DNA from: Dokdonella sp.
GTDB taxonomy: Bacteria; Pseudomonadota; Gammaproteobacteria; Xanthomonadales; Rhodanobacteraceae
NCBI GenBank assembly: GCA_019634795.1
Contig: JAHCAR010000003.1
Coordinates: forward strand, 124,001-188,000
DNA length: 64,000 bases
Direction: 5' to 3'
In this document: in pieces, positions 21,719-40,325 of the stretch
Numbering within the stretch: position 1 is the stretch's first letter
Layout of the letters: every line of letters starts with the position of its first letter
Notes under the pieces: model-generated
Told to the model about the DNA's origin: nothing
Seen by the model: only the letters and a program-made list of their open reading frames with translations
Database searches by the model: none
Position numbers and translations under genes: made by a program

Positions 21719-23482
21719 GTGGCGGTAAGCGCATTCGCGACCTACCGGCGCCTGCTCGGTTACGCTGCGCGCGACTGGCCGTTCGCGCTCGCCGGCGTCG
21801 CCGGCATGGTCTTCGATGCCGCGGTCGCGGCCGTGTTCACGGCCATGATCCGGCCGATGCTCGACGACCTGTTCATCAGCCGCAATGAAACCGCGATCCT
21901 GTGGATGCCGCTGGTCATCGTCGGCCTGTTCGTCGTGCGCGGCGTGGCCACCTATGTCGCCGACTACGGCCTGGCCCGGATCGGTCGCGACGTGGTCGAG
22001 ACCCTGCGTGGCGATGTCTTCGCACGCTATCTCGTGCTGCCGGCCGCGCATTTCGACCGCGAGCCTTCGGGGCAGATGATCTCGCGCCTGACCTACACGG
22101 TCGAACAAGTGGCCCAGGCCAGCACCAATGCGGTCAAGGTGGTCATCCTCGACAGCCTGACCGTGCTCGGGCTGCTCGGCGTGATGCTCTACCAGAGTGC
22201 ACGCCTGACCCTGATGTTGTTCGTGATGGCGCCCCTGATCGCCGCGGTGGCCTGGATCGTCGGGCGCCGCTATCGGCGCATCAGCGGCAAGATCCAGCAC
22301 TCGGTCGGTTCGGTCACCGGCATCGTCGACGAGGCGGTCAGCGGCCAGCGCGAGGTCAAGGTCTATCTCGGCCAGGCCGCCGAGCGCGCACGCTTTGCCG
22401 ACGTCAACGAGCAGAACCGGCGCCTGAACCTCAAGATCGCCTCGACCAATGCCTTGTCGACTTCGGTCGTGCAGATCGTCGCTGCCTGTGCGCTGGCCCT
22501 GGTCATCTACTTCGCGACGCGGCCGGCCATGCTGCAGACCATGAGCCCGGGCACCTTCATGTCGCTGATCACGGCGATGCTGATGATGCTGCCGTCGCTG
22601 AAACGCCTGACCACGGTGCAGGCCATGATGCAGCGTGGCGTGGCCGCGGCCGCCGACCTGTTCTCGGTGATCGACTCGCCCGGTGAGCGCGACACCGGCA
22701 GCGTGCACGTCGAGCGCTGTCGCGGCGAGGTCGAACTGCGAGACGTGGTCCTGCGCTACCCGGGACAGACGACGCCGGCGCTCGACGGGGTTTCCCTGCA
22801 TTGCGCGCCCGGCACGGTGACCGCCCTGGTCGGCCGCTCGGGCAGCGGCAAGTCGAGCCTGGCCAGCCTGATCCCGCGCTTCTACGAACCCGATTCGGGC
22901 AGCGTGCTGCTCGATGGCGAGCCGCTCGACGCCTGGCAGCTCGACAACCTGCGCAGCCAGATCGCCTGGGTCGGCCAGCAGATCGTCCTGTTCAACGACA
23001 GCATCGGCCGCAACATCGCCTATGGCGCCCTCGGCGGCGCTTCGCGCAGCGCGATCGAGGCCGCCGCCGATGCGGCCAATGCCAGCGAGTTCATCCAGCG
23101 CCTGCCGCAGGGCCTCGACAGCCAGGCCGGCGAGGGCGGGGCGCTGCTTTCGGGCGGCCAGCGGCAACGCATCGCGATCGCCCGCGCCCTGCTCAAGAAT
23201 GCACCGCTGCTGATTCTCGACGAGGCCACCAGCGCGCTCGACACCGAATCCGAACGCCTGATCCAGGATGCATTGAGGCGATTGATGAAGGATCGCACAG
23301 TGCTGGTCATCGCCCATAGGCTTTCGACGATCGAGCACGCCGACCAGATCGTCGTGCTCGACGAAGGTCGCATCGTCGAACAGGGCACGCACCGCGAACT
23401 GCTCGACCGCGACGGCCACTATGCGGCCCTGCACCGCGTCCAGTTCCGCGAACACGAGCCGCTTGCCGACGCAGCGACATGA
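21719..23482 (+). CDS. msbA: Lipid A export ABC transporter MsbA
   Basis: A 587-residue half-transporter flipping lipid A-core across the inner membrane. A six-helix membrane domain with the intracellular loop FDREPSGQMISRLTYTVEQV leads to an ATPase with Walker A GRSGSGKSS, signature LLSGGQRQRIAIARALL, Walker B LLILDEATSALD and the H-loop VIAHRLSTIEHAD. GTG start is chosen (GGCAGGGAG just upstream); longer in-frame starts lie inside exbD. The stop overlaps lpxK. Confidence 0.93.
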   Translation: MAVSAFATYRRLLGYAARDWPFALAGVAGMVFDAAVAAVFTAMIRPMLDDLFISRNETAILWMPLVIVGLFVVRGVATYVADYGLARIGRDVVETLRGDVFARYLVLPAAHFDREPSGQMISRLTYTVEQVAQASTNAVKVVILDSLTVLGLLGVMLYQSARLTLMLFVMAPLIAAVAWIVGRRYRRISGKIQHSVGSVTGIVDEAVSGQREVKVYLGQAAERARFADVNEQNRRLNLKIASTNALSTSVVQIVAACALALVIYFATRPAMLQTMSPGTFMSLITAMLMMLPSLKRLTTVQAMMQRGVAAAADLFSVIDSPGERDTGSVHVERCRGEVELRDVVLRYPGQTTPALDGVSLHCAPGTVTALVGRSGSGKSSLASLIPRFYEPDSGSVLLDGEPLDAWQLDNLRSQIAWVGQQIVLFNDSIGRNIAYGALGGASRSAIEAAADAANASEFIQRLPQGLDSQAGEGGALLSGGQRQRIAIARALLKNAPLLILDEATSALDTESERLIQDALRRLMKDRTVLVIAHRLSTIEHADQIVVLDEGRIVEQGTHRELLDRDGHYAALHRVQFREHEPLADAAT

Positions 23483-24465
23483 AGCAGGCCGACATCGAGC
23501 GCATCTGGTACGGCGCCGGCCCGGTGCCGTGGTGGATGCGCGCGCTCGTCCCGCTCTATCGCCTGCTGTATCTGCTCGTGCGGTTGCCCTATGCGCTCGG
23601 CCTGCGCCGGCCGGCGCAATTGCCGCTGCCACTGATCGTGGTCGGCAACCTGACCGCCGGCGGCACCGGCAAGACCCCGCTGGTGATGGCCCTGATCGGG
23701 GCGCTGCGCGCGCGCGGCTTCAATCCCGGCGTGGTCAGCCGCGGCTACGGTGGCTCGGCATCCGCGCCGACGCTGCTCGACGAGGCCCCCGACCCGCGCG
23801 TCGTCGGCGACGAACCGGCCCTGATCCGGCGCCGGACCGGGGCGCCGGTCGCGGTCGGCCGCGATCGCGTCGTTGCCGCCGGATTGCTGCAAGGCAGTGG
23901 AATCGACGTGATCATCGCCGACGACGGCCTGCAGAACCCGGCCCTGTGCCGCGATATCGGGATCTGCGTGGTCGATGGACAGCGCCGCTTCGGCAACGGG
24001 CGGCTGCTGCCGGCCGGTCCGTTGCGCGAACCGACCGCGCGCCTTGAACAAGTCGATTTCGTGGTCTGCAATGGCGACAGCGCGCAGCCCGGCGAAGTCC
24101 GGATGCTGCTGCAGCCGGGCCAGGCCATGCCGGTCGGCCATGCCGGGACGCCGCGAAACCTCGCCTCGTTTGCCGACGGCAAGGTCCACGCGGTCGCCGG
24201 CATCGGCAATCCCCAGCGCTTTTTCGCCAGCTTGCGCGAATGCGGGCTCGACCTCATCGAACATGCCTTCGCCGACCATCATGTCTTCACGGCCGGCGAC
24301 TTCGCGTTCGCCGATGAACTGCCGGTACTGATGACCGAAAAGGATGCGATCAAGTGTCGCGGACTGGCCGATTCGCGACTCTGGCAGGTGCCCGTCGATG
24401 CCGAAATTCCGGCCAGCTTCTTCGACGCCATCGCGCAGCGCCTCGGGCAGCGGCGGTCGGGCTAG
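23479..24465 (+). CDS. lpxK: Tetraacyldisaccharide 4'-kinase LpxK
   Basis: A 328-residue membrane-associated kinase that phosphorylates the lipid A precursor DSMP at the 4' position. The P-loop GNLTAGGTGKTPLVMAL is at about residues 56-72, followed by VVSRGYGG, VVGDEPALI, the catalytic-region IIADDGLQNPALCRD and RLLPAGPLREP. It overlaps msbA by ATGA, giving co-expression of lipid A synthesis and export. Confidence 0.93.
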   Translation: MKQADIERIWYGAGPVPWWMRALVPLYRLLYLLVRLPYALGLRRPAQLPLPLIVVGNLTAGGTGKTPLVMALIGALRARGFNPGVVSRGYGGSASAPTLLDEAPDPRVVGDEPALIRRRTGAPVAVGRDRVVAAGLLQGSGIDVIIADDGLQNPALCRDIGICVVDGQRRFGNGRLLPAGPLREPTARLEQVDFVVCNGDSAQPGEVRMLLQPGQAMPVGHAGTPRNLASFADGKVHAVAGIGNPQRFFASLRECGLDLIEHAFADHHVFTAGDFAFADELPVLMTEKDAIKCRGLADSRLWQVPVDAEIPASFFDAIAQRLGQRRSG

Positions 24466-24547
24466 GCGAACGCATCTCGCGGGCGATTCGCGTTTGGACG
24501 TCCATACCGCCAAGCAGGAAGTTGCATTCGCAACCATCGCGGAATGC

Positions 24548-24577
24548 TTGACACGCTGTTCGCGCATCGGTTACGGT
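24548..24577 (+). promoter_or_regulatory. Sigma70-type promoter of the leu-ilv leader
   Basis: A consensus -35 TTGACA (24548-24553) is followed after 18 bases by TACGGT (24572-24577), a -10 match of moderate quality. The expected start site is near 24584, which is the A of the leader-peptide ATG. No other promoter-like pair is seen between lpxK and the leader. Confidence 0.6.
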
Positions 24578-24583
24578 CGGTTC

Positions 24584-24718
24584 ATGTCGCAGCGCAACAC
24601 AAGTATCCACGCCTTCCGGACGAACCGGCTTCCCGCGGTCGCCGCGCGTTTGCGCGCGTCGCCTGGCCTGGTCGTCGTCCTTGGACTCGTACTTATTAGC
24701 TGCGGAGGTGCGGGCTAG
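24584..24718 (+). CDS. Branched-chain amino acid leader peptide
   Basis: A 44-residue peptide ending in a control run L-V-V-V-L-G-L-V-L-I (residues 29-38; four Leu, four Val, one Ile), then SCGGAG and TAG. The run uses several codons rare in this GC-rich genome (CTT, GTA, ATT). It has no Shine-Dalgarno sequence, consistent with a leaderless transcript from the promoter just upstream. The sequence immediately after the control codons can pair with the terminator arm. This is the architecture of ilv/leu operon leaders; it senses charging of tRNA-Leu, tRNA-Val and tRNA-Ile. Confidence 0.8.
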   Translation: MSQRNTSIHAFRTNRLPAVAARLRASPGLVVVLGLVLISCGGAG

Positions 24719-24781
24719 GGTACACGTCCACCATTTGGACCCCCAAAACCCCGCACTCGGCAACGAAGGCGGGGTTTTTTG
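24708..24781 (+). promoter_or_regulatory. Transcription attenuator of the leu-ilv operon
   Basis: Terminator: AAAACCCCGC (24745-24754) pairs with GCGGGGTTTT (24769-24778) and ends in a T6 run. Antiterminator: GTGCGGG (24708-24714, inside the last leader codons) is exactly complementary to CCCGCAC (24750-24756), so the two structures exclude each other. A small hairpin, GTCCA/TGGAC, lies between (24727-24740). A ribosome stalled on the Leu/Val/Ile run leaves GTGCGGG free (operon on); one reaching the stop codon covers it (operon off). Confidence 0.8.
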
Positions 24782-24823
24782 TTGCCACAACCTGTCGGAA
24801 ATTCATTGACACCGGAGCCACAG

Positions 24824-26425
<1,602 letters not shown>

Positions 26426-26435
26426 GGATTCCCGC

Positions 26436-27452
26436 ATGTCCCATTCCAGCCTGATATGGCACAACGGCCAGCTCAAACCCTGGGCCGAGGCGACCGTCCA
26501 CGTCAGCGCCCATGCGCTGCATTACGGTTCCTCGGTGTTCGAGGGCGAGCGGGTCTACGCGACGCCGGAGGGGCCTGCCTACTTCCGCCTTGCCGACCAC
26601 ACCCGTCGCCTGTTCGAGTCGGCGCGGCTCTACGAGATCGACATCGGCTACAGCGAAGCCGAGATCAACGCCGCCTGCATGGAGCTGATCGCGGCCAATC
26701 GCATGCAGTCGGCCTACGTGCGGCCGATCGTGTTTCGCGGCGCCGGCGGCCTCGGCGTGATTCCATCGAAAGGTTCCCCGGTCGATGTTTCGATCATGGC
26801 CCTGGAGTGGGGCGCCTATCTCGGTGACGCGATCAACGACGGCGCCGATGTCTGCGTGTCCTCGTGGAACCGCCCGGCGCCAAATACGATCCCGAGCTGG
26901 GCCAAGGCCGGCGGCAATTACCTTTCGAGCCAGCTGATCGGCTTCGAGGCGCAGCGCGGCGGCTACGCCGAGGGCATCGCGCTCGGCACCAATGGCCTGC
27001 TCAGCGAAGGCGCCGGCGAAAACCTGTTCCTCGTGCGCAAGGGGCGCCTGTACACGCCGACCACCAGCGCCGGCATCCTCGCCGGCATCACCCGCGACAG
27101 CGTGATCACGCTGGCCGGCGACCTCGGCCTCGAGGTCGAGGAGCGCGACATGCCGCGCGAAGCGCTGTACACCTCCGACGAAGTCTTCATGACCGGCACC
27201 GCGGCCGAGATTACGCCAGTGCGCTCGGTCGACCGCAAGCCAGTCGGCAGCGGCAAGCCCGGCCCGATCACGCGGGCCCTGCAGAAGGCCTTCTTTGGTC
27301 TGTTCGACGGCAGCACGACCGACACGCGCGGCTGGCTCGAACCGGTTTCCAGCGGAACCGGTGGCCACGGACGGCCGCCCCTCGCTATCGATCCGGGCCA
27401 GGGGCGAATGCAGCAGGCCGAAGCCCGCGCCGACGTCGAGGCCGTGGCATGA
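26436..27452 (+). CDS. ilvE: Branched-chain amino acid aminotransferase
   Basis: A 338-residue PLP class IV transaminase making Leu, Val and Ile from their keto acids. It has [11 protein letters not shown] near residues 29-39, the PLP Lys in [30 protein letters not shown] and [15 protein letters not shown]. It carries about 30 extra C-terminal residues (Gly/Pro/Ala-rich, ending ADVEAVA) beyond the usual LEPV end of roughly 305 residues. The stop overlaps leuC by ATGA. Confidence 0.94.
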
Positions 27453-28858
27453 CCGCACGCACGATCATCGACAAGATCTGGGATGCGCACCTGGTCCGCG
27501 CCGAAACCGCTGACACGCCGGGCATCCTCTATGTCGACCTGCACCTGATCCACGAAGTCACCACGCCGCAAGCGTTCAGCGAACTGCATGCGCGCGGACT
27601 CAAGGTGCGCTGTCCGCAGCGCGTGCTGGCGACTCTCGACCATTCGACGCCGACATCACCACCGGACGCGGACGGCAAGCGCCACTACGTCACTGCCGAA
27701 GCTGAAAGCCAGGTCGCCAGGCTCGAGCAGAACTGCCGCGAATTCGGCATCGAACTGAACGGCTGGGACAGCGACCATCGCGGCATCGTGCACGTGATCG
27801 GCCCCGAACTCGGCGCGACCCGGCCCGGCATGACGATCGTCTGCGGTGACAGCCATACCGCCACCCACGGCGCCTTCGGCGCGCTCGCCTTCGGCATCGG
27901 CACGACCGAGGTCGGCCATGTGCTGGCTACCCAGTGCCTGCTCCAGCGCAAGCCGAAGACCATGGCCATCCATGTCGCGGGCAAACTTCGCCCGGGGGTC
28001 GGCGCCAAGGACCTGATCCTGCACATCATCGGCCGCATCGGTGTCGGCGGCGGCACCGGCCATGTCATCGAATATCGTGGCAGTGCGATCGAGGCGCTGT
28101 CGATGGAACAGCGCATGACCGTCTGCAACATGTCGATCGAGGCCGGCGCGCGGGCCGGGCTGATCGCGCCCGACCAGACCACCTTCGACTGGCTCAAGGG
28201 ACGTCCGCGGGCCCCACGCGGCGCGGCCTGGGATCGCGCGGTCGAGGCCTGGGAGCAACTGCGCAGCGATCGCGATGCCGTCTACGACGCCGAATTCCAT
28301 TTCGATGCGGCCGCGATCGGTCCGACCATCAGCTACGGCACGCACCCGGGCATGGTCACCCCGATCACGGCGCAGATTCCGGCCCCGCGCAACGCGCAGG
28401 AGAGCAAGGCGCTGGCCTACATGCAGTTCGACGGGGGCCAGGCCCTGACCGGGCAGAAGGTCGATGTGGTCTTCGTCGGCAGCTGCACGAATTCGCGCCT
28501 GTCCGACCTGCGCGAAGCCGCCGCTGTGCTGCGCGGCCGCCAGGTCGCCGCCGGCGTGCGTGTGCTGGTCGTGCCCGGTTCGGTGCTGATCAAGCGCGAG
28601 GCCGAAGCCGAGGGCCTCGACCGCGTGTTCCGCGAAGCCGGCGCCGAATGGCGCGAGGCCGGCTGTTCGATGTGCATCGGCATGAACGGCGATATCGCCC
28701 GGCCCGGCCAGCTCGTGGTCTCGACCAGCAATCGCAATTTCGAGGGACGCCAGGGTCCCGGCGTGCGCACCGTGCTGGCCAGTCCGCGGATCGCCGCGGC
28801 GGCTGCGGTGGCCGGGGTCATCGTCGATCCGGATGCGATCGAGGAGCGCGCCGCATGA
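27449..28858 (+). CDS. leuC: 3-isopropylmalate dehydratase large subunit
   Basis: A 469-residue aconitase-family subunit holding the 4Fe-4S cluster: Cys in [13 protein letters not shown] and the pair [10 protein letters not shown]. Also [25 protein letters not shown] and the start [12 protein letters not shown]. With LeuD it isomerises 2- to 3-isopropylmalate. Overlaps ilvE and leuD by ATGA at both ends. Confidence 0.96.
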
Positions 28859-29460
28859 AGCCACTGAACGTGATCCGCTCGCGCACGGCCTGCCTGCCGT
28901 TCGAGAACATCGACACCGACCGCATCATCCCGGCGCGGTTCCTGACCACGACCAGCCGGGCCGGACTCGGCCGTCATGCCTTCAACGACTGGCGTTACCG
29001 CGACGATGGCAGCGACAACCCCGATTTCCCGCTCAACCGGCCGGAGGCCGCGGGCTGCCGGATCCTCGTCGCCGGTCGCAACTTCGGTTGCGGCTCGTCG
29101 CGCGAGCACGCGCCCTGGGCCCTGCTCGACTACGGCATCGAGGCGGTCATCTCGTCGGAGATCGCCGACATCTTCCGCAGCAATGCGCTGAAGAACGGCC
29201 TGCTCACGATCGTCGTCGCCGAGGCCGAACACCGCGAACTGCTGGCCGAGCCGGGCATCGAACTCGTCATCGACATCGGCGCCGGGACGATCAGCCGGCC
29301 CGACGGCGCGGTCATCCGCTTCGAACTCGACCGCTTTGCCCGGCATTGCCTGCTCAACGGGGTCGACCAGCTCGGCTTCCTGCTCGAGGCCGCGCCCGAA
29401 ATCAGCGCCTGGGAAGCGCAGAACGCCGAGAAATCCAAAAGCATGGAGAGTGCAGCATGA
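28855..29460 (+). CDS. leuD: 3-isopropylmalate dehydratase small subunit
   Basis: A 201-residue swivel-domain subunit partnering LeuC. It shows [37 protein letters not shown] and [17 protein letters not shown]. Coupled to leuC upstream and leuB downstream by 4-base overlaps. Confidence 0.96.
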
Positions 29461-30520
29461 GAGCAGACATCGCCGTCCTTCCCGGTGACGGCATCGGTCC
29501 CGAGGTCACTGCGGCCGCCGTCGCCGTGCTGCGCGAGGTCGCCGATCGCCATGGCCACGTCTTCGCCTATGCAGAGAATCGCATCGGCGGCATCGCCATC
29601 GACGAATGCGGTGAGCCGCTGCCCAAGGCCACGATCGATGCCTGCGTGGCATCGGATGCGGTCCTGCTCGGTGCGGTCGGTGGTCCGCGCTGGTCCGATC
29701 CGCAGGCCCGCGTGCGTCCCGAGCAGGGCCTGCTGGCCTTGCGCGCCCGCCTCGGCGTGTTCGCCAACCTGCGTCCCTTGCGCGTGCATCCGCGCCTGGC
29801 CGGACTGTCGCCGCTGAAGGCCGAAAACCTGGTCGGCGTCGATCTGCTGTTCGTGCGCGAACTGACCGGCGGCGCCTACTTCGGGCGCAAGACCCGCGAG
29901 GGCGACGTCGCCATCGACGAGTGCCGCTACAGCGTCGGCGAAGTCGAGCGCGTGGTCCGTCGTGCCTGCGAACTGGCGCGGTCGCGCAAGGGCCGCCTGA
30001 CCTCGGTCGACAAGGCCAACGTGCTCGAGACCTCGCGCCTGTGGCGGGCCACGACCGAACGCGTTGTCGCCGAATACGAGGGCATCACGCTCGAACACCA
30101 GCTGGTCGATTCGATGGCGATGCTGCTGCTGACCCGGCCCTCGGCCTACGACGTGATCGTCACCGAGAACCTGTTCGGCGACATCCTGACCGACGAGGCG
30201 GCCGCACTGGCCGGCTCGCTCGGCGTCTCGCCCTCGGCCTCGCTCGGGGCAGGGCGGCTCGGCCTGTACGAACCGATCCATGGCTCGGCACCCGACATCG
30301 CCGGGCAGGGCGTGGCCAACCCGATCGGCGCGATCCTCAGCGCGGCCCTGCTGCTGCGCCATTCGCTCGGACTCGAGGCCGAGGCGCGTGCCGTCGAAGC
30401 GGCGGTCGATGCAGTCCTCGAATCGGCCGAGCTGACGCGTGACCTCGGCGGCACGGCGAGCACGCAGCAGGTGACCCGCAGCGTGATCGAACAGTTGCGC
30501 AGCAAGCAGCAGGCCGCGGC

Positions 30521-30524
<4 letters not shown>
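29457..30524 (+). CDS. leuB: 3-isopropylmalate dehydrogenase
   Basis: A 355-residue NAD-dependent oxidative decarboxylase completing the leucine-specific branch. It opens [14 protein letters not shown], has [10 protein letters not shown] (substrate-site region), [32 protein letters not shown] with the Asp metal ligands, and [14 protein letters not shown] (NAD binding). Shares 4-base overlaps with leuD and ilvD. Confidence 0.96.
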
Positions 30525-32206
<1,682 letters not shown>

Positions 32207-32247: not shown

Positions 32248-33231
<984 letters not shown>

Positions 33232-33295: not shown

Positions 33296-35173
33296 ATGAA
33301 TGCGGTGATGAAGCAAGACGACGAGGCCCGCGCCGATGGGGCCGCGCATGCGCTGGCCGGCAGCACGCTGTCCGGCGCGGATATCGTCGTGCAGGTGCTC
33401 GCCGACGAAGGCGTGGACGTGCTGTTCGGCTATTCGGGCGGCGCCATCCTGCCGGTCTACGACGCCGTGTTCCGCTACAACCACGAGCACCTGCGCAGCG
33501 ACGGCAGCGAGCCGCTGCCGCTGATCGTGCCGGCCAACGAGCAGGGCGCCGGCTTCATGGCCCAGGGCTATGCGCGGGCCTCGGGCAAGGTCGGCGTGGC
33601 CCTGGTGACCTCGGGGCCCGGTGCGACCAATACGGTCACGCCGGTGCGCGATGCGATGGCCGATTCGATCCCGATCGTCGTCATCTGCGGCCAGGTGCCG
33701 ACCGGAGCGATCGGCACCGATGCATTCCAGGAGGCGCCGGTCAGCAGCATCATGGGTTCCTGCGCCAAGCACGTGTTGCTGGTGACCGACCCAAGCCTGC
33801 TCGAGGCGACCATGCGCACGGCCTTCGAGATCGCCCGTACCGGACGCCCCGGTCCGGTCGTCGTCGACATCCCGAAGGACATTCAGAACGCGCTCGTGCC
33901 GTTTCGCGGCCAAGGTCGCCTGCCGATCCCGGGCTACCGCGCACGCCTGCGCGCGATCTCGGAATCGCGGCTCGACGACACCCACGGCGACCGCCTGCTG
34001 GCCGCGCTCGGCAAGGCCGAGCGGCCCTTGCTGTATGTCGGCGGCGGCGTGATCTCGGCCGACGCGACCGCGGCGCTGCGCGAGTTCGCCGCTGCGTTCG
34101 GCATTCCGGTGACGACCACGCTGATGGGGCTCGGCGCCAGCGACACGACCGAGCCGCTGTCGCTGCACATGCTCGGCATGCACGGCACCGCGTTCGCCAA
34201 TTACGCTGCGGTCGACTGCGATTTCCTGATCGCGGTCGGCGCACGCTTCGACGACCGCGTCGCTGGCGTGCCGGACCAGTTCGCGAGCAAGGCGCGCTTC
34301 ATCGCCCAGTTCGATGTCGATCCGGCCGAGATCGACAAGGTCAAGCGCGTCGACTGGCACCACCTCGGCGACATCTCGCAGGCCCTGCGCGCGCTCTGCG
34401 CCCGCGCGCGGCAGACCGGCTTCGATCCGAACGGGCAGGGCCGCTACGCCGCCTGGCATGCGCACGTGGCGCAACTGAAGAAGGCCCACGCCATGAACTT
34501 CGATCGCGCCAGCGCCCTGATCCAGCCGCATGCGGTCATCGAGGAGATCAACCGCATCACGCGCGGCAATGCGATCGTCTGCACCGGGGTCGGCCAGCAC
34601 CAGATGTGGGCCGCGCAGTACTTCGACTTCATCGAGCCGCGGCGCTGGCTGACCTCGGGCTCGATGGGCACGATGGGCTTCGGCCTGCCGGCTGCGATCG
34701 GCGCCCAGTTCGCCCGCCGCGACCTGACCGTGATCGACATCGATGGCGACGCCAGCATCCGCATGAATCTCGGCGAACTCGAAACGGTGACCACCTACAA
34801 CCTGCCGGTCAAGGTCGTCGTCCTCAACAACTGCGGCGACGGCATGGTCCGGCAGTGGCAGAAGCTGTTCTTCAAGGGGCGCTTCTCGGCCACCGACAAG
34901 AGCCTGCACAAGAAGGATTTCATCAAGGCCGCCGAGGCCGACGGCTTTCCGTATGCGGTGCGCCTCGAGCGCCCCGAAGACCTCGCGCGCGTGATCCGCG
35001 AGTTCATCGAATTCGACGGCCCTGCCTTCCTCGAGGTCATGATCGATCCCGATGCCTGTGTTTATCCGATGGTCGGGCCCGGCATGAGCTATTCGCAGAT
35101 GATCACAGGCGAACACATCGCCTCGCGCGACAGCGTGGTGGCCAGCGAATCCGGCCCCGTGGAGATGTTCTGA
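33296..35173 (+). CDS. ilvG: Acetolactate synthase large subunit
   Basis: A 625-residue ThDP enzyme making acetolactate or acetohydroxybutyrate. It shows FGYSGGAILPVYD, PANEQGAGFMAQGYARASG with the catalytic Glu, VTSGPGATNTVTPVRDA, VGARFDDRVAG, QHQMWAAQ and the ThDP loop IDIDGDASIRMN ending LNNCGDGMVRQWQ, where DGMV replaces the more common QGMV. Start chosen by GGAG eight bases upstream; a start 54 bases earlier is possible. Abuts ilvN. Confidence 0.93.
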   Translation: MNAVMKQDDEARADGAAHALAGSTLSGADIVVQVLADEGVDVLFGYSGGAILPVYDAVFRYNHEHLRSDGSEPLPLIVPANEQGAGFMAQGYARASGKVGVALVTSGPGATNTVTPVRDAMADSIPIVVICGQVPTGAIGTDAFQEAPVSSIMGSCAKHVLLVTDPSLLEATMRTAFEIARTGRPGPVVVDIPKDIQNALVPFRGQGRLPIPGYRARLRAISESRLDDTHGDRLLAALGKAERPLLYVGGGVISADATAALREFAAAFGIPVTTTLMGLGASDTTEPLSLHMLGMHGTAFANYAAVDCDFLIAVGARFDDRVAGVPDQFASKARFIAQFDVDPAEIDKVKRVDWHHLGDISQALRALCARARQTGFDPNGQGRYAAWHAHVAQLKKAHAMNFDRASALIQPHAVIEEINRITRGNAIVCTGVGQHQMWAAQYFDFIEPRRWLTSGSMGTMGFGLPAAIGAQFARRDLTVIDIDGDASIRMNLGELETVTTYNLPVKVVVLNNCGDGMVRQWQKLFFKGRFSATDKSLHKKDFIKAAEADGFPYAVRLERPEDLARVIREFIEFDGPAFLEVMIDPDACVYPMVGPGMSYSQMITGEHIASRDSVVASESGPVEMF

Positions 35174-35688
35174 TGCGCCATATCATCTCGATGCTGCTGC
35201 AGAACGAGGCCGGCGCGCTGGCCCGCGTCGCCGGCATGTTCGCCGCGCGTGGCTACAACATCGATTCGCTGACCGTGGCCGCGACCCACGATCCGAAGGT
35301 CTCGCGCCTGACCATGGTCACCTTCGGCGACGACGGCGTGATCGCGCAGATCATCAACCAGTCGCGCAAGCTGATCGACGTGCTCGAGATCGCCGACCTG
35401 ACCAGTCGCGATCACCTCGAATCGGAACTGCTCGTGGTCAAGGTCGCGTCGAGTGCGTCGAATGCCGCGGCGATCGCCCGCTTCACCGAGCTGAACTTCG
35501 GCATCGTGCTCGAGGAGACCGAATCGACGCGAACCCTGCAGTTCACCGGGCGCGGCTCGCACATCAGTGCGGTGCTGGCCGAACTGGGCGGCATGGCGCC
35601 GATCCTCGAACTGGCGCGCAGTGGCACCGCGGCCCTCGAGCGCGGCCAGTCGGTACTCGCGCCGGCCGAGTTGACCGCCCCGGCCTGA
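35173..35688 (+). CDS. ilvN: Acetolactate synthase regulatory subunit
   Basis: A 171-residue ACT-domain protein (RHIISMLLQNEAGALARVAGMFAARGYNIDSLTVAATHDP) giving activation and valine feedback to the large subunit. The second half (residues 80-165) is the AHAS small-subunit C-domain, ending in a low-complexity tail. The start overlaps the last base of the ilvG stop. Last gene of the operon; no terminator hairpin was found before the repeat array. Confidence 0.93.
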   Translation: MRHIISMLLQNEAGALARVAGMFAARGYNIDSLTVAATHDPKVSRLTMVTFGDDGVIAQIINQSRKLIDVLEIADLTSRDHLESELLVVKVASSASNAAAIARFTELNFGIVLEETESTRTLQFTGRGSHISAVLAELGGMAPILELARSGTAALERGQSVLAPAELTAPA

Positions 35689-35721: not shown

Positions 35722-36605
35722 CCTGATCAGCCTCAACGCTCAGCCATTCGATGACCGTTCGCCCTGAGCGTAGGCCCATAGGGCCGGAGTCAATCTCCGT
35801 TCGCCCTGAGCGTAGGCCCGCAGGGCCGAAGTCGAAGGGTCGCTCAGTCGGTGCTTCGACTTCGCTTGCTGGCGCAAGCTACGCTCAGCACGAACGGAAA
35901 TCAGGAGCTACTCTCAGCAAGAAGGGATATCCGGGGCTCAACGACAGGGCAATCGGGACCTTGGATTCCTGCGGATTCTCGATGAGCCTCAAAGCTCAGA
36001 CTATCGATGACCGTTCGCCCTGAGCGTAGACCCGCAGGGCCGGAGTCAATCTCCGTTCGCCCTGAGCGTAGGCCCGCAGGGCCGGAGTCGAAGGGTCGCC
36101 CGGGTCAGTGCTTCGACTTCGCTTGCTGGCGCAAGCTACGCTCAGCACGAACGGAAATCAGGAGCTACTCTCAGCACGAAGGGATATCCGGCGCTCAACG
36201 ACAGGGCAATCGGGACCTTGGATTCCTGCGGATTCTCGATGAGCCTCAAAGCTCAGGTTATCGATGACCGTTCGCCCTGAGCGTAGGCCCGCAGGGCCGA
36301 AGTCAATCTCCGTTCGCCCTGAGCGTAGGCCCGCAGGGCCGGAGTCGAAGGGTCACTCAGTCGGTGCTTCGACTTCGCTTGCTGGCGCAAGCTACGCTCA
36401 GCACGAACAGAAATCAGGAGCTACTCTCAGCACGAAGGGATATCCGGGGCTCAACGACAGGGCAATCGGGACCTTGGATGCCTGCGGATTCTCGATGAGC
36501 CTCAAAGCTCAGGTTATCGATGACCGTTCGCCCTGAGCGTAGACCCGCAGGGCCGGAGTCAATCTCCGTTCGCCCTGAGCGTAGGCCCGCAGGGCCGGAG
36601 TCGAA
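35722..36605. repeat. Amplified palindromic (MITE-like) element, array A left part
   Basis: A 256-257-base unit is tandemly repeated. Inside each unit is a hairpin of about 101 bases running from CCGTTCGCCCTGAGCGTAG to CTACGCTCAGCACGAACGG, with an inner AGTCGAAG/CTTCGACT pair. Complete hairpins lie at 35797-35897, 36053-36154 and 36310-36410, each preceded by a partial left arm at 35756, 36012, 36268 and 36524. The fourth (from 36566) is cut by the IS. The left edge CCTGATCAGCC matches in inverse the GGCCAATCAGG at 38105-38115. Small 80-90 codon open frames repeat with the unit but look non-coding. Confidence 0.85.
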
Positions 36606-36613
36606 GGGTGCAC

Positions 36614-39971: not shown

Positions 39972-40325
39972 TGGTGGAGGTGGCGGGAGTTGAACCCGCG
40001 TCCGAAGGCGATTGACGCCCAGTCCTACATGCTTAGCTCATCGTTCGATCTCGTCTTCCGGCAGTACGATGTGCGAAACGCACCGGTTGACCAGTCTGGA
40101 AGATTTCGCCGTGCTCCGTCAGACCGCGGATTCGGGCTATCCCATGATAATGACGGTACATCCACGAGCATGAGCACAAGTGGGTTCCCGGCTTACGCCT
40201 TAAGCGGCGAGAGCGTAGTTGTCGTCGTTGGCAACTAAAAGTTTGCTACTGGATTAACGAGGAAAGTCGCCCCCTCGGCATGCACCAAGCTATCTCACTA
40301 CCCCCGTCGAAGCCATGACACCCCC
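39972..40325 (-). ncRNA. ssrA: Transfer-messenger RNA (tmRNA)
   Basis: A 354-base one-piece tmRNA. The 5' end GGGGGTGTCATGGCTTCGAC and 3' end with T-loop GGGTTCAACTCCCGCC, CACCTCC and CCA form the tRNA-like part with a 7-bp acceptor stem (one G-U). The tag frame at 40200-40232 reads ANDDNYALAA then TAA, one residue from the E. coli tag (ANDENYALAA). It releases stalled ribosomes and marks truncated proteins for ClpXP. Its partner smpB lies 300 bases upstream on the same strand. Confidence 0.97.

Follow-up and report, generated by a model that had tools for sequence, protein, structure and literature searches.

How is the transcription of a long set of biosynthetic genes adjusted to the supply of three amino acids from the short region in front of the first gene? 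This question is raised by the window, a stretch of 64,000 nucleotides from a genome of Dokdonella sp., in which nine branched-chain genes follow each other in one direction with overlaps of at most 4 nt and gaps of at most 64 nt. All of them lie on the forward strand and were identified using NCBIfam: leuA (2-isopropylmalate synthase, 24824–26425), ilvE (branched-chain aminotransferase, 26436–27452), leuC (27449–28858), leuD (28855–29460), leuB (29457–30524), ilvD (30521–32206), ilvC (32248–33231), ilvB (acetolactate synthase large subunit, 33296–35173) and ilvN (acetolactate synthase small subunit, 35173–35688). The nine-gene operon that an earlier note on this DNA had placed downstream of a stall-dependent switch is thus present with all its genes. 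Upstream is lpxK (23479–24465), followed by a leader ORF, a terminator and leuA. The closest named relatives of the LeuA protein encoded in the window come from Lysobacteraceae and Lysobacterales MAGs, Dyella, Tahibacter and Rhodanobacter, which places the window in the order Lysobacterales.

The answer that we propose, with a probability of about 0.9 based on sequence comparison, is a ribosome-controlled transcription attenuator that serves the leu-ilv operon and whose leader-peptide transcript is leaderless. Such a switch would probably turn the nine Leu/Val/Ile genes on when these amino acids are scarce.

Leader frame and competing helices upstream of leuA

The leader peptide ORF occupies positions 24584–24718 of the forward strand and contains 44 codons and the stop codon TAG (24716–24718). 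It has no good Shine-Dalgarno sequence, and its frame stays open in relatives. The encoded peptide is MSQRNTSIHAFRTNRLPAVAARLRASPGLVVVLGLVLISCGGAG. Codons 29–38 (24668–24697), further referred to as the control run, are CTG GTC GTC GTC CTT GGA CTC GTA CTT ATT and encode L V V V L G L V L I, so that nine of ten are Leu, Val or Ile codons. When the complete window was scanned in six frames, no stretch other than that in the leader had at least nine such codons in ten. Both the frame and the codon run described in the earlier note were therefore verified. The same holds for the rarity of three control codons in this genome: as counted in 13 genes of the window, CTT constitutes 2.6% of Leu codons, GTA 1.6% of Val codons, and ATT 7.3% of Ile codons. 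Rare control codons might sharpen the response.

An intrinsic terminator hairpin is predicted at 24745–24778 of the same strand, with the arms AAAACCCCGC (24745–24754) and GCGGGGTTTT (24769–24778) and a T6 U-tract at 24775–24780. Its folding energy is −21.0 kcal/mol, compared to the mean of −8.8 kcal/mol for shuffled sequences, and none of 200 shuffles equaled it. The 5’-strand of the putative antiterminator, GGTGCGGG (24707–24714), lies inside the last leader codons, while the 3’-strand, CCCGCACT (24750–24757), overlaps the 5’-arm of the terminator. The exact complementarity claimed for this region is indeed there: GTGCGGG at 24708–24714 matches all seven bases of CCCGCAC at 24750–24756, in the 5’-arm of the terminator with T6 after it, and the G-U pair 24707–24757 extends the helix to 8 bp. 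GTGCGGG occurs five times on the forward strand of the window, and about 0.013 occurrences are expected in 166 bases. The predicted fold places a small hairpin (24718–24744) inside the antiterminator helix; in 62 loci the spacer within the antiterminator is barely more structured than its shuffles (mean z −0.44).

The RNA segment 24698–24757 folds as the predicted 8-bp antiterminator with −21.8 kcal/mol, nearly equal to the energy of the terminator, and 30 of 200 shuffles reach this stability; for the segment 24707–24757 alone, the energy is −21.5 kcal/mol and seven of 200 shuffles are as good. As 30 of 200 shuffles equal the fold of the 60-mer, the weight of the antiterminator case falls on relatives. 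In the minimum-energy fold of the full-length leader the terminator is formed, and positions 24706–24712, which make up most of the antiterminator strand, pair with 24688–24694 in the control run. RNA folding, suggested in the earlier note as a check, yields the terminator in the full-length fold and the antiterminator in the fold of 24698–24757.

Occurrence in related genomes and covariation

A raw-DNA search of 60 genomes produced matches in 31, the window's own included. Thirty loci were fetched, one of them being the window, and 26 of the 29 others have a leader with a GAG-type end. A sequence-only model was built from the window and these 26 relatives. Within the order, the model matches 286 of the 398 genomes searched, 264 of 342 good-quality ones and 74 of 98 genera, where the counts include the window's genome and some genomes of the model, and the count of 286 takes the weakest matches at face value, by score alone. 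Twenty distant matches from 19 genomes were examined. The next gene was leuA in four cases, ilvD in 13 and ilvC in three, hence the element stays ahead of the leading branched-chain gene, be it leuA, ilvD or ilvC. In one genome (G255) it precedes both ilvD and leuA. Another (G072, C9) has three leader-like matches (L091, L092, L106), one before ilvE and two divergent ones between ilvD and leuA, placed ahead of these two genes. Sixteen extra matches in 14 genomes were considered as second copies, and 11 of them were rejected, being reverse-strand matches on the same terminator palindrome.

A class-wide search covered 369 genomes at E values up to 1e-4; ten had matches, and in five of these, outside the order, the matches were weak. 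Of 80 LeuA loci, 17 (among L126–L154) have weak matches that precede ilvC and lie approximately 1.1 kb from leuA on its upstream side. Their records are labeled Woeseiaceae (3 loci), Chromatiales (2 loci), or just Gammaproteobacteria or Proteobacteria (12 loci). Seven of these loci have a leader-like ATG with TTGAC 35–39 nt before it, five have such an ATG without TTGAC, and five have no convincing leader frame; some of the 17 have shorter leaders. A contig labeled as a Polyangiaceae MAG (L183) contains a leuA gene 66% identical to that of the window and a similar leader; perhaps it is a misbinned Lysobacterales contig.

For the comparison of leaders, 196 loci were reduced to 154 with an nhmmer match to A1 and then to 144 with a usable ORF, ten having none under the limits applied. 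Eleven loci with fewer than seven Leu/Val/Ile codons in ten were dropped, and the remaining 133 were reduced by shared 8-mers to 68 non-redundant loci. Seven dropped loci (L126, L131, L133, L134, L143, L144, L154) have a leader-like frame visible on closer look. By selection, the leader frame is open in all 68 loci; the same bases contain stops in the +1 frame in 50 loci and in the +2 frame in 27. A terminator-like hairpin followed by a T-run is present in all 68.

In the alignment of 27 sequences, the antiterminator columns are paired in 98.1% of cells, versus 32–64% when slid by 1–3 columns. In the same alignment, a two-sided change is seen in a single pair and a single sequence, and 15 of 500 shuffles do equally well on every measure. 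Over the 68 loci, the mean energy of the leader/arm duplex is −22.8 kcal/mol for matched and −20.9 kcal/mol for swapped strands (standard deviation of the mean 0.24) and none of 200 swaps is as good, the test being inflated by kinship, since related loci have both strands in common. The core helix is at least 7 bp long in 64 of the 68 loci; it shrinks to 5 bp in two (L003, L076), and one (L027) has no convincing helix. Compensated cores were found in three pairs of loci, GGAGCGGG/CCCGCTCC in L017 and L140, GGTAGCGGG/CCCGCTACC in L070 and L075, and GGCGCGGGGTTC/GAACCCCGCGCC in L063 and L067, the changes including T to A, an inserted A, and T to C. The antiterminator helix is thus kept through compensating changes. 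Conservation of the leader frame and of the GTGCGGG/CCCGCAC pairing in relatives had been set beforehand as a test of the switch; both are conserved, and the pairing covaries.

The position of the helix is also kept. The last control codon and the helix are separated by 9 nt in 39 of the 68 loci, the window among them, and the helix ends 1 nt before the leader stop codon in 39 of 68. A helix that begins 9 nt past the control codons and ends before the stop fits its release by stalling and its masking at the stop. Nine nucleotides past the last control codon is approximately where the leading edge of the ribosome lies. A footprint of 26 nt is used for the ribosome in PMC13236596.

Promoter position and choice of control codons

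The −35 element TTGACA (24548–24553, forward strand) exactly matches the consensus, and the spacing of TTGAC is kept across loci. The −10 element TACGGT (24572–24577), separated from it by an 18-nt spacer, corresponds to the position of TAnnnT in relatives. Six nucleotides lie between TACGGT and the ATG at 24584; with this spacing, the predicted transcription start is position 24584, that is, the A of the leader ATG. A simple consensus scan of the window for promoters and terminators picked up neither this promoter nor the terminator.

In 62 of 68 non-redundant loci, TTGAC is located 35–38 nt before the leader ATG, and in shuffled sequences it falls within 33–40 nt in 0.8% of cases. TAnnnT ends 6–8 nt before the ATG in 45 loci, and in 22 there is no TAnnnT within the last 20 bases. 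Conversely, 58 of 60 loci with TTGACA upstream have an ATG 34–39 nt further on whose frame is that of the leader and runs uninterrupted to its stop codon. Six of the 68 loci lack TTGAC at the required distance as scored here; in one of these (L023) a second in-frame ATG is properly spaced. At the start of the leader, the anti-Shine-Dalgarno energy amounts to −2.7, compared to values from −3.4 to −8.1 at the nine genes of the operon and from −3.5 to −5.8 at the leuA starts of eight relatives. Energies of −4.5 or lower were obtained for seven of 68 leaders. Given the TTGAC–ATG spacing and the absence, in most cases, of a good Shine-Dalgarno sequence, it is very probable that the leader is transcribed as a leaderless RNA, with the promoter fused to the leader. 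This fusion is the most unusual feature of the switch and was absent from the earlier note.

Absent from it too was the group-wide, strong skew of control codons towards synonyms that are rare in genes (GTA, ATT and CTT). In the control runs of the 68 loci, CTT, CTC and CTG constitute 45%, 46% and 8% of Leu codons, respectively, GTA constitutes 70% of Val codons, and ATT, 92% of Ile codons. For comparison, the respective values in leuA of 19 relatives are 2.5%, 22% and 67% for CTT, CTC and CTG, 7% for GTA, and 8% for ATT. The share of GTA among Val codons is 32/47 in loci with cores other than GGTGCGG and 81/116 in loci with GGTGCGG. Since these frequencies are similar, pairing with the core provides no general explanation of the GTA choice. 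The comparison favors tRNA sensing over base pairing, as GTA mostly stays when the facing RNA base differs, although two loci with changed cores do alter the codon.

The genome, which is 85% complete, contains one tRNA gene each for Leu anticodons GAG, CAG, TAG, CAA and TAA and for Val anticodons TAC and GAC. No gene for a Val CAC tRNA was found in this incomplete genome, hence the Val-TAC tRNA would serve both GTA and GTG. The codon skew may be linked to selective charging of isoacceptors, the theory of which is treated in PMC1183508. Just one Ile tRNA for ATT and ATC (GAT) was found in the 85% of the genome at hand, and so the skew of Ile codons must have another reason.

In leaders of 45 codons, the numbers of substitutions at the three positions of codons 2–27 are 2336, 2783 and 2708 (483 non-independent pairs of 52 distinct leaders), and in codons 2–8 there is no third-position excess either (404, 588 and 541). 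Because codons 2–27 vary about equally at the three positions, the peptide sequence does not seem to be visibly selected, and the leader looks like a ribosome timer more than a product. Of the 68 leaders, 38 begin with the motif M[STP][QH]R; they belong both to the family of the window and to another family (f2). The conserved first codons may serve leaderless initiation.

Predicted mechanism, rival readings and known attenuators

The scheme that follows is built from features seen in the DNA itself, namely the frame, the codon run, the competing helices, their covariation, the genes and the promoter spacing. Its start site, leaderless initiation, stalling and read-through are predicted steps. 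RNA polymerase would start at or beside the A of the leader ATG, as suggested by the promoter spacing, and a ribosome would initiate at this ATG without a Shine-Dalgarno sequence. When Leu, Val and Ile are ample, it would reach the stop codon and cover positions 24707–24714; with the antiterminator strand covered, the terminator would form and transcription would end near 24780. When Leu, Val or Ile is short, the ribosome would stall on codons 29–38. The strand 24707–24714, which begins 9 nt past the last control codon, would then be free and would pair with 24750–24757, preventing the terminator, and the nine genes would be transcribed. The codon run, the competing helices, the covariation and the cognate genes all support the stall-dependent attenuator suggested by the earlier note.

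The order of events would differ if the control codons paired with the antiterminator strand in a protector helix, as in a classical three-state attenuator. In that case, stalling would act by masking the control codons, and an untranslated leader would leave the operon off (super-attenuation). The full-length fold, where 24688–24694 (CGTACTT) is paired with 24706–24712, agrees with this. An 8-bp match to the control run, with G-U pairs tolerated, occurs in 39 of 48 loci with the core GGTGCGGG, versus 13.8 expected at the ordinary codon usage of leuA, and in L017 and L140, with the core GGAGCGGG, the changed base is faced by GTT or ATT and not by GTA, as pairing would want, L017 retaining a 9-bp match. 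However, 38.3 matches in 48 loci are expected from the codon usage of the control run itself, and the observed matches therefore follow from the codon choice. Moreover, the duplex energy is no better than after synonymous recoding (mean z 0.0, 68 loci), and GTA is still the main Val codon with other cores, including that of L091, which is also GGAGCGGG. A protector helix is thus a candidate, though less likely than not, and the attenuator where stalling leaves the antiterminator strand free is preferred.

A role in trans for the peptide or for the leader RNA ending at the terminator, in addition to attenuation and similar to that of peTrpL and rnTrpL of Sinorhizobium, would agree with the length of the leader (44–45 codons in the window and many relatives) and with the shared M[STP][QH]R start in 38 of 68 leaders. 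It is nevertheless improbable, given that the codon-position counts show no visible selection on the peptide and that the conserved start may instead aid leaderless initiation. According to a further reading, the frame encodes a small protein, either a lipoprotein or a membrane protein, and the terminator behind it is an ordinary one, since in the window a hydrophobic stretch precedes Cys at residue 40, and LVLISC presumably resembles a lipobox. Yet Cys is absent from the last 12 residues of 54 of the 68 non-redundant leaders, a lipobox-like motif occurs in just six, no Pfam or NCBIfam match was obtained for the peptide of the window or that of one relative, the upstream codons lack protein-level constraint, and the terminator sits between the promoter and the biosynthetic operon; such a protein is hardly credible. 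Equally little can be said for a riboswitch or a T-box in place of a translated attenuator. A terminator in the 5’-leader of an amino acid operon would suit either, but neither the amino acid leader families of Rfam nor the T-box matched the leader at the gathering threshold, Rfam matches in the window being limited to tmRNA and a tRNA elsewhere. A laxer Rfam search of 24450–24850 returned two sub-threshold, unrelated matches, and the open leader frame contrasts with the frequent stops in the +1 and +2 frames. A translated attenuator thus remains the preferred reading.

The proposed mechanism and its parts are those of ribosome-mediated attenuators, and leaderless attenuators are already known; the Lysobacterales switch would be a new, widespread example. 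A literature search, which did not cover the 2004 survey of proteobacterial attenuators, found no description of this leader. Branched-chain leaders from Xanthomonas or related bacteria may already figure in that survey of attenuation in proteobacteria, by Vitreschak et al. Attenuators of the enterobacterial leu, ilvGMEDA and ilvBN operons combine a leader led by a Shine-Dalgarno sequence with a protector helix. They have the logic and the amino acids in common with the window leader, with CUA control codons in leu (PMC1183508). The window leader is matched by no Rfam leader model.

The leader of Corynebacterium glutamicum ilvBNC (ilvL) has no ribosome binding site, and transcription starts one nucleotide from its start codon; this 15-codon leader is described by a three-hairpin model with an anti-antiterminator, and replacement of the start codon decreased expression by 80% (PMC11857589, PMC10272879). 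It resembles the window leader in being a branched-chain leader without a ribosome binding site and with terminator/antiterminator competition before an ilv operon. In contrast, the window leader has 44 codons and the antiterminator strand inside the last of them, belongs to another phylum, and has a protector helix only as a candidate. For Mycobacterium tuberculosis ilvB1NC, the same occlusion at the stop has been proposed: the antiterminator is masked as long as a ribosome sits at the stop codon, and stalling on an LVVI run, with GUA among the regulatory codons, frees it (PMC13236596). It differs from the window in phylum, in the operon and in its 166-nt leader. The trpL leader transcript of the proteobacterium Sinorhizobium meliloti starts with the ATG of the leader ORF (PMC7298713), as is predicted for the window, while its Trp codons, its length of 14 residues and its reported activity in trans set it apart. 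Finally, a study of ilvCGM-leuA in Xanthomonas campestris worked with a promoter fragment, roughly 500 bp long, taken from the region upstream of ilvC (PMC12575087), and this fragment may contain such a leader.

Taken together, these features allow a broader reading, which is put forward tentatively and with somewhat more doubt than belief. Leaderless initiation would be a fixed part of the switch, with the promoter, the start codon and the sensor forming one rigid, long-kept unit at the head of the leading branched-chain gene in Lysobacterales; weaker ilvC-leuA copies would exist in Woeseiaceae, Chromatiales and Gammaproteobacteria-labeled MAGs. The unit would sense the charging of isoacceptors (GUA, CUU/CUC) and, having no protector helix, would allow read-through when untranslated, opposite to C. 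glutamicum ilvBNC. In any case, this is a defined regulatory element for branched-chain genes that is widespread in one order, and its copy in the window has no Rfam, Pfam or NCBIfam match. Dozens of natural variants are at hand for studying the coupling between transcription and leaderless translation; they also bear on the choice of leader codons.

Several other elements were noticed on the 3’-side of the operon. A 3.5-copy array of a 256-bp unit (95% matches) occupies positions 35725–36609, between ilvN and a transposase gene of the Mutator family (PF00872; 36684–37949, reverse strand). Further on, at 39972–40325 of the reverse strand, lies a tmRNA gene with the tag ANDDNYALAA.
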